Positions 35,592 through 40,163 of a stretch of 64,000 nucleotides of DNA are shown here, piece by piece. The notes under the pieces are model-generated. The model was given only the letters and a program-made list of their open reading frames with translations, had not been told where the DNA came from and did not search any database. The position numbers and the translations under genes were made by a program. Origin of the DNA: Acidobacteriota bacterium (lineage in GTDB: Bacteria > Acidobacteriota > Blastocatellia > UBA7656); contig JBBPIG010000001.1 in NCBI GenBank assembly GCA_038040445.1, forward strand, positions 407,126 to 471,125, in the 5' to 3' direction. The first letter of the stretch is position 1. Every line of letters begins with the position of its first letter.

Positions 35592-36176
35592 ATGGTTGAT
35601 ATTGTTACGCTTGTCAACGCGACAAACATTTCCAAAGCGATAAACCTGCTCAAGTGGATGGACAAGGATCGAGTTGCGCGCTGCGGAGAAGAACCGGCGA
35701 GGTTGCTAGACAATGGGCCCGCGGAGCCGCTGTGGTTGAACGGCGACTCGCGTTACGAGTACCAAAGACCAGACGTCGATACCCTCTGTGAACTCGACTT
35801 TCTTCGGCGTGAGATCAAGGAAGGAGAGTTTGTTACTGAGATTAAGTTGACTGACAAGGCTGATCGTCTCGTAGAAGCACTTTATGCGAGGGAGGCCGAC
35901 AAGGCTGATCTAGCCGGACACCGACTCGATTGGATCGTGGTGGCGCACGAGCAGGTTTTCATGGACGAGGGTGCAACTCCTCCAAATCTCAGGGCTCTGA
36001 TGGGTGAGGAATGGAATGCCGGAGATAGGATCGTCATCACCTGTCACAGTCCGGAACATGCTCTAGTTTGTCGTCTTCCGCTCGCCTTGGCGGAGAACGA
36101 CCCAATGTTCGTCGCTGATCTGGAGGAAGTAAAGGAGGATTTCAAGTATGCCGACGCGGAGGTGGACGCGCAGTGA
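35592..36176 (+). CDS. Hypothetical protein, possible partner of a MazF-like toxin
   Basis: 194-aa protein, acidic, without obvious membrane segments. It overlaps the MazF-like toxin gene by four bases (GTGA) and is therefore likely its cognate antitoxin, but it is far longer than usual MazE proteins and shows no AbrB or ribbon-helix-helix signature. The start at 35592 has AGGGGAGC about ten bases upstream. It lies 48 bases after coxL, inside the cox locus, so the toxin pair may be transcribed with it. Not recognised. Confidence 0.65.
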   Translation: MVDIVTLVNATNISKAINLLKWMDKDRVARCGEEPARLLDNGPAEPLWLNGDSRYEYQRPDVDTLCELDFLRREIKEGEFVTEIKLTDKADRLVEALYAREADKADLAGHRLDWIVVAHEQVFMDEGATPPNLRALMGEEWNAGDRIVITCHSPEHALVCRLPLALAENDPMFVADLEEVKEDFKYADAEVDAQ

Positions 36177-36325
36177 GTGTCGAACGATGGAGTATCTGGA
36201 AGGCGAATCTGGATCCGGTCATCGGCTCGGAGCAAGGTCGAGTTCGCCCAGTGCTAGTAATTAGCGAAACTATGAATAATGATCTTCTGCGTGTGGTGAA
36301 CGTTCTTCCGATAACCTCTCGCAAG
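36173..36325 (+). pseudogene. mazF: MazF-like toxin, 5' part (split by transposon)
   Basis: The first 51 codons encode VERWSIWKANLDPVIGSEQG then GRVRPVLVISETMNN and VVNVLPITSRK, the beta-barrel core of PemK/MazF endoribonucleases (the G-R-V-R-P-V-L-V-I segment is typical). The frame stops at 36361 inside the transposon. The rest of the gene, in the same frame after removal of the element and one copy of the duplication, is at 39961-40163. Confidence 0.9.
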
Positions 36326-36348
36326 GGTGATAATATATTTGACTCAGT
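36326..36348. repeat. Left terminal inverted repeat of the IS1595-type transposon
   Basis: Starts GGTGATAATATATTTGAC and continues TCAGT. It pairs with 39938-39960. Mismatches at positions 4, 13 and 19. Confidence 0.93.
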
Positions 36349-36373
36349 TTACGCCCCGTGATAGGCTCGGGGA

Positions 36374-37438
36374 ATGTCGGTCGAACCTCGCCAGTCCCAG
36401 CAGAGCCTATCACAAAAGCTATCAAGGCTTGCAGACAGCAACCTCTTTTGGGGCGGAGGTGTGGCTGTGGCTCTAGCGGGTTACGCTTTTGAGTTAGGTT
36501 CTGCGCCAAAAGCCTCCGTGGTCTTGTTGGTGCTTGCTTGGCTGATGATCACAATATCGGTTTGCAGACATGATTTCTTTGAGGGGAAGCAGAAGCCTCT
36601 AAAGCTGGTGGGCAACAGTTTTCTTTCGGGACTACTGGCGGCTGTGCTAGCGGTTGCTTGGATAGCGTTACGTGCGCAAGGCCAATCCGAGAGCCTGCTA
36701 GAAAAGTACATCGGGACAGTTTGGCCGTATCTAGAATGGGTCGCAGTCCGATCATATCAATACCTAATTGGATTCCTGATTGCATTTCTTTCAATCGGCG
36801 TTGTAAGACTGTGGAAACGTCGCAAGCGGCGACAAGAAGCAAACGTAGTCAGGCGACTTAGTGCGCTAGGATCACAAGCAAAGGGCTGGCTTGACCATGC
36901 CAGAGATCGCGAAATTGCACGCCAGCGATATAGCATTCTCGCGGGTAAGATAGGCAACGAAATAGGGTCAATAGCAAGGACCGCAGACGCTGCCGCTAAA
37001 AGCTTCGGTCGCGCTAAAGATGTTCCCGGCATGGATAGGGCCGCGTCTGAAGCCGCAACGCGCTTGCATAAACACGCCGATAAACTAGAAAGTACCGCGC
37101 AAGAGTTTGAAAGTATTACAAGCCTGTGGATTGATAGTAATGCGGAGTTTGTTAAGTGGTCCACGGGTGCGGGGCGGTCCGCAGATTCAATTGCGCTTGA
37201 ACGCAATCAATATGCTGAGATGCTCACCAGGACGGATGCGTCTCTCGCTTCGCTCAAGACCTTTCGCAATACACAAATCGGAATACAGGGCATCTCGCAA
37301 GAACTCAACGCAGCGGCTGGTAGGCTGATCGTGACCTTAGATAAGATTGACGGTCTTATGACAAAAAGCCGAGATCATTGGCAGCGAGCTATTGAGATAT
37401 TGAATGCTGCTACGCCGACAGATGAGACGAAGCAATAA
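36374..37438 (+). CDS. Transposon passenger: membrane protein with helical C-terminal domain
   Basis: 354 aa. Four hydrophobic helices (about 26-46, 48-64, 82-98, 130-148) are followed by a basic stretch (RLWKRRKRRQ) and a long alpha-helical cytoplasmic domain (about 170-345, for example IGNEIGSIARTADAAAKSF). It begins 13 bases after the transposon's left inverted repeat, so its promoter may lie within the terminus itself (TTGACTCAG lies there). No family recognised. A role in host interaction or immunity is possible but only a guess from its position as cargo. Confidence 0.65.
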   Translation: MSVEPRQSQQSLSQKLSRLADSNLFWGGGVAVALAGYAFELGSAPKASVVLLVLAWLMITISVCRHDFFEGKQKPLKLVGNSFLSGLLAAVLAVAWIALRAQGQSESLLEKYIGTVWPYLEWVAVRSYQYLIGFLIAFLSIGVVRLWKRRKRRQEANVVRRLSALGSQAKGWLDHARDREIARQRYSILAGKIGNEIGSIARTADAAAKSFGRAKDVPGMDRAASEAATRLHKHADKLESTAQEFESITSLWIDSNAEFVKWSTGAGRSADSIALERNQYAEMLTRTDASLASLKTFRNTQIGIQGISQELNAAAGRLIVTLDKIDGLMTKSRDHWQRAIEILNAATPTDETKQ

Positions 37439-37453
37439 GCCGGGTCGAGAATC

Positions 37454-37642
37454 TTATCCTTTGGATGGCTTGGTCCGTATCGGTCTTAACGCCGCTTTCC
37501 GTTCCGCAATTCGCTTCTTATGATACTCAGCTTGTTTCTGATCGATCTCTTCTTTAGGAACGTTCACAAGTTTACGGGCGAAGTCTACGAAGCGTTCGGC
37601 TTCGGATTGACCATCTGAACTGGCGTCGGCCTTTTGTTTCAT
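37454..37642 (-). CDS. Transposon passenger: small charged protein
   Basis: 62-aa hydrophilic, Lys/Glu-rich protein (EAERFVDFARKLVNVPKEEI, then QKQAEYHKKRIAERKAALRP). It is the family of short, unnamed proteins often seen beside mobile elements. It converges with the membrane-protein gene, 15 bases apart. Function unknown. Confidence 0.55.
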   Translation of the reverse strand: MKQKADASSDGQSEAERFVDFARKLVNVPKEEIDQKQAEYHKKRIAERKAALRPIRTKPSKG

Positions 37643-37672
37643 TAGAATGGTTCCTTACTTCCTCACTCAATG

Positions 37673-38149
37673 TTAGAAGGGTTCTTTTTGGGCTTTGGCC
37701 AATTCAACCGCATGTGCAAAGGCCGCTTTCATTCGCTCGCCCATCTGTTTATCGACAAATAGAAGATAGAATTCGTCTGTCTCGTAGACATCTACGCTTG
37801 GTCGGCTAACGCCTAAATGAAGCGTAAATTTTCGTTTGGTATGTAATAAAACTTTCCACTTAGGATGTTTACTGTCTGGGGGATTCAAGGTCACGGTTTC
37901 AACGTCCTTTAATGGAATCGTGCCAAACGAGGACATAGTAATATCGCTGCCAGAAATCTCAATCAGATTCCAAGCTGCGTAAACATTTAGACCGTCAAAC
38001 TTGATTCTAGCCTTTGGATTGTGAATGTCGCAGGTTTTCGTAATCCAGTCGGTTGTCTCGGCTAGAGTCGGCTCTGGGGGCTTCTCTTGCGCGATTGCAG
38101 CAACGGCAAACATGCAGCAGCAAACAGCGGAAACCAGATAGCGGTTCAT
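37673..38149 (-). CDS. Transposon passenger: exported protein, unknown function
   Basis: 158-aa protein with a clear signal peptide (NRYLVSAVCCCMFAVAAIAQ, cleavage after AIA). The mature part is strand-rich (GLNVYAAWNLIEISGSDITM, HTKRKFTLHLGVSRP) with a helical end. Starts at 38149 or at 38179 (MKTECKTQRN) are both possible. It may be transcribed together with the small gene downstream of it on the minus strand. Not recognised. Confidence 0.6.
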   Translation of the reverse strand: MNRYLVSAVCCCMFAVAAIAQEKPPEPTLAETTDWITKTCDIHNPKARIKFDGLNVYAAWNLIEISGSDITMSSFGTIPLKDVETVTLNPPDSKHPKWKVLLHTKRKFTLHLGVSRPSVDVYETDEFYLLFVDKQMGERMKAAFAHAVELAKAQKEPF

Positions 38150-38266
38150 ATTGCGTTGCGTTTTGCACTCGGTTTTCATGGTCTGATTGTACCACAGAGG
38201 ACGGTCTGCAAAGAGAACAACCGGCGCGCGAAAATCCAATTAGGACACACAGGATAAAGAAGCGAC

Positions 38267-38476
38267 ATGGACAGGCCGCAGTATCCAGCATATCAAGAGG
38301 GCGAATGGATTGCGCCTAAACGCCGTGGCTACCGGCTTGGCTGCTGTGACTGTGGCCTTGTGCATCGCATTAACTTTCGCCTAGTAAGAGACGGTCGCGG
38401 CACGACGATTATATTTCAGGCTTTCCGCGATGGTAAAGCAACGGGTGCGCTGCGGAGAAAGTTAAGTGCAAGATAA
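38267..38476 (+). CDS. Transposon passenger: small zinc-ribbon-like protein
   Basis: 69-aa protein with LGCCDCGLVHRINFRLVRDG, where a Cys pair and a His suggest a small metal site. Similar short proteins occur in phage genomes. It is divergent from the exported-protein gene. Function unknown. Confidence 0.6.
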   Translation: MDRPQYPAYQEGEWIAPKRRGYRLGCCDCGLVHRINFRLVRDGRGTTIIFQAFRDGKATGALRRKLSAR

Positions 38477-38530
38477 TTCAGATGCGACTGGTCGTGTGGG
38501 GCGGATTGGTTACCGCCCCTCTAGAAGTTA

Positions 38531-38650
38531 TCACCTGCCGATTCTTACGCGTTCCTTTTCGGTGGTCTTCTTGTGTTTCAGCGCATACGCTTTCGTGCAG
38601 AGCCGTCCATTATCTGAACGGCGGTAGATGATCTTCATTTTCACTGCCAT
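38531..38650 (-). CDS. Transposon passenger: 39-aa basic protein
   Basis: Short open frame with an excellent ribosome-binding site (AGGAGAACTCC before the ATG). The product MAVKMKIIYRRSDNG then RLCTKAYALKHKKTTEKE is strongly basic and resembles tiny proteins common on phages and mobile elements. Too short for standard gene callers. Function unknown. Confidence 0.55.
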   Translation of the reverse strand: MAVKMKIIYRRSDNGRLCTKAYALKHKKTTEKERVRIGR

Positions 38651-38960
38651 TGGAGTTCTCCTGGTGGGACCGCGTGAAAGGAGTGGACGTTCGGGTTGGC
38701 CTTATGCTACGATGCCGTTGCATCGAAACATAACACCGGGGCCGCAAAGATTCTTTCCCGCGATCACCAATCACAGAATGAATCTAGCGGCCCTTCCCCT
38801 TTTCTACAACAAGGCCATTTTTATCACAAACTTAGCCCGGTTACAATATTGTTTTCGGAGCGAACCGAAAATTCCTCGAAAGTTTGGACACAGCGAAACC
38901 GCTACTAATAGTGTTTGGATTGGGAAACGGAAGGCAAAACCGCAAGAGCCAAATAGATTA

Positions 38961-39911
38961 TTACCCTAACTTCCCGGTCAACTGTTTGTAGGTCAGTCTG
39001 CGGCCAACAATCAAGCGAGAGATGGCTAAGAATCGAATTTGGTCCGTCACCTTGCGATTGTTGAATCTGAATGATTGCTCATCGAGGTAGCGAAACAAAT
39101 GGAACGGCTCGATACTGATATACGTGCCCTTGATGCACCGCTTCAAAAGACACCAGAAGTTCTCAAGACCGTTTGTATGAATTTGACCATCAACATATTT
39201 TTCGGCATGGTCAACGACCTGATGAATGTATTCGTCCATTCCTTCGTAGGAACCAAGCGCGTCCGTGAATAGGAAGGAGCCTTGTTCAACGTCGTCTCTG
39301 ACTGCTTTCTGAATCGTTTCCTTGCGGCGGCTTGGAATTACCTTGCATCGCACGTCGCCGCCGTGTCTCTCAAGCAATCCCATGACCGCGACCTTACCGA
39401 CGAATCCGGTCTTGGTTCCGATCTTCTCCGCTCGCTTGTGCTTGTGCATGAATCTGGCCGCGCCGCCGATGAACGTCTCATCAGCTTCAACCTGTTGGCC
39501 TTCGCCGCCCAACTTCTCAAAGGTTCCCGTTTGCATCGCGAGTCTAATTCTGTGCATCAAGAACCAAGCGGACTTCTGAGTTATGCCAAGGCCGCGATGG
39601 ATTTCATAAGAGCTAATGCCGTTCTTTGCGCCGCCGATCATCCAGATAGCGGCCATCCACTTGTCGAGGCCGATGGGCGAATCTTCCATCAAGGTTCCGA
39701 GCTTGACCGTGAACATTTTCTTGCAGGCTTTGCACTGCCACGTCCGGCGGGTAGAAATGAACGTGTAGGCGTCACACGCGCAACGCGGGCACGTGATGCC
39801 GTTCGGCCATCGCAGAGTGATCATGAAGTTCAGCGCGTTGTCTGGATTCGCAAAGTAAACGATTGCTTGCTGAAGCGTTTTTGGGAAGGCATTCTGTGTC
39901 TGTGTTTCCAT
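38961..39911 (-). CDS. IS1595-family (ISXO2-like) transposase
   Basis: 316 aa. N-terminal zinc ribbon with CPRCACDAYTF and WQCKACKKMFTVKLGT, then the helix-turn-helix-like GISSYEIHRGLGITQKSAWFL. The catalytic core shows Asp in VEADETFIGG, Asp in FLFTDALGSYEGM and the Asn/Glu site HTNGLENFWCLLKR followed by YISIEPFHLFRYLDEQSFRFN. It is full length and looks intact. The start codon lies 49 bases from the right terminus of the element. Confidence 0.93.
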   Translation of the reverse strand: METQTQNAFPKTLQQAIVYFANPDNALNFMITLRWPNGITCPRCACDAYTFISTRRTWQCKACKKMFTVKLGTLMEDSPIGLDKWMAAIWMIGGAKNGISSYEIHRGLGITQKSAWFLMHRIRLAMQTGTFEKLGGEGQQVEADETFIGGAARFMHKHKRAEKIGTKTGFVGKVAVMGLLERHGGDVRCKVIPSRRKETIQKAVRDDVEQGSFLFTDALGSYEGMDEYIHQVVDHAEKYVDGQIHTNGLENFWCLLKRCIKGTYISIEPFHLFRYLDEQSFRFNNRKVTDQIRFLAISRLIVGRRLTYKQLTGKLG

Positions 39912-39937
39912 ACTCAGGATTGTCTCACAGATGGCTT

Positions 39938-39960
39938 ACTGTGTCAAGTATATTATTACC
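39938..39960. repeat. Right terminal inverted repeat of the IS1595-type transposon
   Basis: Reads, as reverse complement, GGTAATAATATACTTGAC and ACAGT. Pairs with 36326-36348. Confidence 0.93.
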
Positions 39961-40163
39961 CTCGCAAGGCGGCCCGCCGTATTCATCCGAACGAATCGTT
40001 GATCCCAAGCGGCGCGGGTGGCTTAACAGTAGACTCAGTTGTTCTGTGCTATCAGATCAAGACGCTCGATAGACAACGACTGGCTCGAATGTATGGCACG
40101 CTCAACGATACGGCGCGGCGCGACGAGGTTCTGAAGGCGCTGCGTTATCAGCTAGGAATTTGA
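39961..40163 (+). pseudogene. mazF: MazF-like toxin, 3' part (split by transposon)
   Basis: Begins with the second copy of CTCGCAAG. In the frame of 36173-36325 it continues as ARRIHPNESLIPSGAGG then LTVDSVVLCYQIKTLDRQRL and ends KALRYQLGI, the conserved C-terminal half of MazF with the catalytic-core S/T-V-D-S-V and QIKTLD motifs. No stop or frameshift has accumulated, so the insertion seems recent. Confidence 0.9.

Follow-up and report, generated by a model that had tools for sequence, protein, structure and literature searches.

The locus analyzed here lies in a stretch of 64,000 nucleotides from an Acidobacteriota bacterium of the class Blastocatellia (contig JBBPIG010000001.1 of assembly GCA_038040445.1, positions 407,126 to 471,125), referred to below, at its full length, as the window, in which a toxin gene of the PemK/MazF type is interrupted by a transposon of the IS1595 family that carries additional genes. 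The transposon occupies positions 36326-39960 (3,635 bp), is structurally complete and occurs as one copy in the 6.7-Mb genome. It is bounded by 23-bp terminal inverted repeats, the left at 36326-36348 on the plus strand (GGTGATAATATATTTGACTCAGT) and the right at 39938-39960 on the minus strand (GGTAATAATATACTTGACACAGT as the reverse complement), which are identical at 20 of 23 positions. A search for the pattern of both ends that allowed up to 3 mismatches returned 2 places in the genome, namely the element's own ends, and 0 in the control; the ends are not chance matches. Directly outside them stands the target duplication, CTCGCAAG, at 36318-36325 and as an exact repeat at 39961-39968, the left copy fitting the palindromic C-W-W-W-W-W-W-G-like preference of the element's relatives. 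The transposase is encoded on the minus strand at 38961-39911 (316 aa) in an open reading frame (ORF) with 0 internal stops, and comprises a zinc ribbon (Zn_ribbon_IS1595, PF12760, 1.3e-14) and a DDE domain (DDE_Tnp_IS1595, PF12762, 4.7e-34); the NCBIfam model transpos_IS1595 (NF033547) is matched at 9.6e-48 with 162.9 bits against a cut-off of 75. The ISXO2-like DDE domain, the zinc ribbon, the 8-bp duplication and the matching ends together place the element in the IS1595 family, and we assume from its ends that the ISfinder subgroup may be ISNwi1-like. A preliminary description of this DNA had proposed an IS1595-type element with an intact transposase, 23-bp inverted ends, an exact 8-bp duplication and passenger genes between the ends, and all of this was borne out. 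The perfect duplication and the undecayed parts are compatible with a recent insertion.

The interrupted gene is recognizable on both sides of the element. Its 5' part (36173-36325, plus strand) matches PemK_toxin (PF02452) at profile positions 1-47 (6.1e-12) and its 3' part (39969-40163, plus strand) at positions 50-108 (4.7e-8); each part passes the curated cut-off separately, the profile positions are consecutive and coordinate arithmetic places the two parts in the same phase, in agreement with the split mazF-like toxin described earlier. From these matches the target is a PemK/MazF-type toxin gene with predicted endoribonuclease activity. Upstream, at 35592-36176 on the plus strand, lies the gene of a probable antitoxin of 194 aa, which overlaps the toxin start by 4 bp. 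A natural intact homologue of this pair was located in a related locus (L189; loci are denoted by L numbers), where a short antitoxin-like gene precedes a 116-aa PemK gene with the same 4-bp overlap. The insertion thus disables the toxin gene and spares the probable antitoxin. The 194-aa protein resembles a modular antitoxin in its sequence: its last ∼25 residues match the tails of short PemK partners (L188, L189 and L191), and over residues 40-169 it shares 53% identity with a protein encoded 5' of a PIN-like gene in another genome of the family (L187).

An additional end-like sequence, GGTAATAATCTATTTGGCTCTTG, was found inside the element at 38945-38967 on the minus strand, oriented as the right end, and its first bases supply the stop codon of the transposase. 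Paired with the left end, it would enclose a unit of 2,642 bp, 36326-38967, containing cargo only. Because this internal end coincides with the stop codon and most relatives have a longer transposase tail, 36326-38967 resembles a two-ended, cargo-only unit joined to a transposase unit, and the arrangement suggests that the window element arose by such a fusion at 38967, which would also explain the exchange of cargo described below. It is quite possible, if somewhat short of even odds, that the internal sequence is instead a chance match and that the element was never a fusion of two units, as several of its positions deviate from the terminal repeats, no matching duplication lies beside it and no other element contains a counterpart. 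Against this, a match of at least 17/20 occurs at just one other place (in L132, likewise an end-like sequence) across ∼840 kb of element and flanking DNA, and the placement exactly at the stop codon and the short transposase tail also argue for the fusion.

Relatives of the element were delimited blind to their cargo, by an exact 8-bp duplication and matching ends. Transposases that are ∼60% identical occur in the class, on contigs with a viral classification and in named genomes spread over many phyla, among them Acidobacteriota, Verrucomicrobiota, Planctomycetota, Chloroflexota, Myxococcota, Nitrospirota, Actinomycetota and Cyanobacteriota. Altogether 109 elements of the lineage, including that of the window, were delimited: 55 from 80 loci of named genomes, 41 from 60 viral-contig loci, and the remainder from loci of the class, among which L018 belongs to a more distant clade. 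The named and class loci form a first set of 68 elements and the viral contigs a second set of 41. All 109 elements are 1.6-8.5 kb long and all contain extra DNA between the transposase and the far end; none is a plain insertion sequence (IS). Carrying passengers is the rule across the lineage and no peculiarity of this copy. The label 'plain IS' was also considered for those 25 named loci at which the duplication was not clean and was rejected, as every right end located there lies 0.97-2.6 kb past the transposase. The target duplications of 65 relatives, from which the window's own site was left out, are A/T-rich and palindromic, with C first and G last, and contain a mean of 4.1 palindromic positions out of 8 versus 2.1 for random 8-mers. 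Because elements of the lineage lie on many contigs assigned to viruses by IMG/VR (L197-L274), phages or prophages may carry them. The more distant clade (∼40% identity) likewise carries cargo, including Vsr with a cytosine methylase and a HicAB pair. Other IS1595 elements (L171, L172 and L183) were observed with Vsr and a DNA cytosine methylase, a HicAB pair and a Schlafen/AlbA-type protein. A search of nine loci, including DUF3800 elements, with Rfam returned two tRNAs only, both outside the elements.

A component that accompanies the transposase in most elements is a small basic protein, represented in the window by a 62-aa ORF (37454-37642, minus strand). With a profile built from 11 class members, the window's ORF included, the protein was found in 90 of the 109 elements versus 2 matches in 1.14 Mb of flanks (57/68 versus 1 match in 690 kb for the first set; 33/41 versus 1 match in 450 kb for the viral set). 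In the genomes of the class, 17 of 26 matches adjoin an IS1595 transposase and most of the others lie near an end-like sequence. The protein matches no Pfam or NCBIfam model, and the window's copy has no match in plasmids. Its predicted structure consists of a helix, a V-P-K turn, a second helix and a basic tail (mean pLDDT of 82), and its ORFs have the third-position excess of coding sequence. Its divergence follows that of the transposase (Spearman 0.21, a value that none of 2000 permutations reached), and host relatedness may lie behind part of this co-variation. The protein may thus aid transposition or maintenance of the element. It could alternatively be a partner of the cargo, such as an antitoxin or a regulator, that is kept because the cargo is toxic: its gene lies directly 3' of a same-strand cargo gene in 23 of 57 elements, often overlapping it or a few bases apart, and the predicted two-helix shape with a basic tail would be compatible with an antitoxin. 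This alternative is considered the less probable one, as the protein accompanies very different cargo, its gene lies at most 300 bp from the transposase end in 40 of the 57 elements, and its divergence tracks the transposase, whereas the cargo does not track the transposase tree.

The cargo itself was inventoried from ORFs of at least 110 aa in the first set of 68 elements. The commonest named cluster noted is DUF3800, present in 20 elements; DUF3800 has a predicted RNase H fold and has been found beside Cas12a2 (PMC10910872). An unnamed family of ∼300 aa without a Pfam match is carried by 10 elements (for example L063:3764-4708, minus strand). GmrSD, AriA-like AAA, RloB, AIPR, MmeI, PemK, RelA/SpoT, D12 methylase, DUF4411 with an IrrE-type regulator, HEPN and RhuM each occur in single or double cases. 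The flanks, used as a control, contain housekeeping families, and DUF3800 is not among the 25 commonest of their 154. The strong impression is that the cargo is enriched in defence-type genes. The cargo labels, mapped onto a tree of 67 transposases, show the same scatter as shuffled labels, and pairs of elements with 79-85% identical transposases carry unlike cargo. Membrane proteins were considered as typical cargo and rejected, as only 8 of the 68 elements have a cargo protein with at least two membrane segments.

The largest passenger of the window is a 354-aa protein (36374-37438, plus strand) with predicted membrane segments at residues 46-64, 83-101 and 129-147, followed by a long helical part. 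No match to it was found in Pfam, NCBIfam, PHROGs or PADLOC, and no relatives were found in plasmids, phages or viral contigs. A search of 162 class genomes recovered its N-terminal part in three others, and the C-terminal parts diverge among the members of the family. One relative is the only gene of a 1,075-bp element that lacks a transposase and has its own ends and the duplication ATAACTTT (L039), so that two of the four family members lie inside IS1595 ends with duplications; another abuts an IS1595 relic, being convergent with a decayed IS1595 transposase (L041), and the last, near a contig end and cut by it, has no visible ends (L040). The cargo is thus not confined to places outside such ends. 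The likeliest role of the 354-aa protein would be that of a membrane-anchored effector or sensor with an exchangeable output part, and it may be an effector of the defence or addiction type.

The other ORFs of the window element are small. A passenger at 37673-38239 (minus strand) has 188 aa from a TTG, or 158 aa from the likelier ATG at 38149, which gives a signal-peptide-like N-terminus. A 69-aa ORF (38267-38476, plus strand) contains a CxxC-type motif; partial relatives of it were observed in two phages. A 39-aa basic ORF (38531-38650, minus strand) is preceded by an AGGAG-type ribosome site and has one relative in the class. None of the 69-, 39- and 158-188-aa ORFs has a relative in the other elements. 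A 113-aa ORF at 38628-38969, on the strand opposite to the 39-aa ORF, is probably spurious because it has no relatives and is antisense to the latter. The preliminary description had counted five non-transposase genes; in the present analysis the ORFs of 354, 62 and ∼158-188 aa are credible and those of 69 and 39 aa plausible. It had also called the cargo unrecognized, which is correct insofar as most of it has no known family and incorrect for the 62-aa ORF and the 354-aa N-terminal part, both of which recur in or beside IS1595 elements.

Taken together, these results are best explained by an autonomous, passenger-carrying IS1595 transposon whose lineage consists of a transposase, ends and a small protein with an exchangeable cargo slot, a reading to which we assign a probability of roughly 0.85. 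It is very improbable that the element is a plain IS1595 element enclosing unrelated neighbour genes at one locus, with functionless bystanders as passengers, even though most of the window's cargo has no recognized family and three of its ORFs have no relatives in other elements, as extra DNA is present in every element delimited, mostly with the same small-protein family, and the whole unit, lying between exact duplications within a gene, arrived as one piece. In the favoured reading, the transposase recognizes both ends and inserts the 3.6-kb unit as a whole into palindromic, A/T-rich sites of 8 bp, which are duplicated; in the window the site was in the PemK/MazF-type toxin gene, and the insertion disrupted this gene and left the upstream probable antitoxin intact. 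The backbone is formed by the transposase, the ends and the small basic two-helix protein, and the remainder is an exchangeable slot, filled in the relatives mostly by DUF3800 and other genes of restriction, abortive-infection or toxin-antitoxin type, and in the window by the membrane protein with the long helical part, a putative secreted-type protein and two small ORFs.

Several observations weigh against this interpretation. As neither a further copy nor a strain with the empty site nor an excised form of the element was seen, we can only infer that the element is mobile. Two of the 109 elements (L054 and L055) lack an exact duplication, so that their boundaries were set by the ends, and two of the viral set (L244 and L254) contain no ORF of at least 90 aa besides the transposase. 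The internal end is one case only. The 354-aa protein matches 0 PADLOC families of known anti-phage defence, and its structure prediction is a poor model (mean pLDDT of 55). Furthermore, the enrichment in defence genes derives from tallies limited to 25 families without full statistical control, and the PADLOC tallies include generic ATPase models.

A more far-reaching interpretation, to which we give close to even odds but only just on the doubtful side, is that the lineage is a dedicated cargo chassis. The transposase, the ends and the previously undescribed small protein would stay together across many phyla, and defence-rich cargo would be exchanged until no phylogenetic signal is left, through transposase-less units fusing with transposase units, the window showing the junction at the transposase stop codon. 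Bacteria exchange defence and toxin-antitoxin genes, but what carries small single modules is in many cases unknown. If the interpretation is correct, a lineage with a cargo slot and a helper-like protein would be such a vehicle, present both in chromosomes from many phyla and on viral-classed contigs; reading the contents of the slot would be a route to new defence candidates, and the role of the small protein in transposition becomes directly testable.

Known systems resemble the locus in different respects. The type II toxin family PemK/MazF (PF02452) shares with the target gene the domain in both parts and the 4-bp overlap with the upstream gene, as in the intact pair of L189; the window's copy differs in being interrupted and in the unusual length of its probable antitoxin (194 aa). 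A composite transposon has two flanking IS copies, whereas the genome contains one transposase and one pair of ends. Mobile insertion cassettes have IS ends and passenger genes and lack a transposase, such as MIC231 of Bacillus cereus (cited in PMC3129680). The class relative L039, which has no transposase, is of this kind and the inner unit of the window, 36326-38967, resembles one, whereas the whole window element has its own transposase. The closest known system is the passenger-carrying 'transporter IS' type of IS1595 (Siguier, Gagnevin and Chandler, 2009, as cited in PMC3129680), with which the element shares the transposase family, the 8-bp duplication and short ends starting with GG, and likewise passengers unrelated to transposition between the transposase and the far end. 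Neither the conserved two-helix protein nor clade-wide exchange of cargo was found described in the open literature searched, a scope that lies outside ISfinder. The kind of element in the window is thus already known, and what is new, as far as that literature shows, is the conserved small protein together with the exchangeable cargo.
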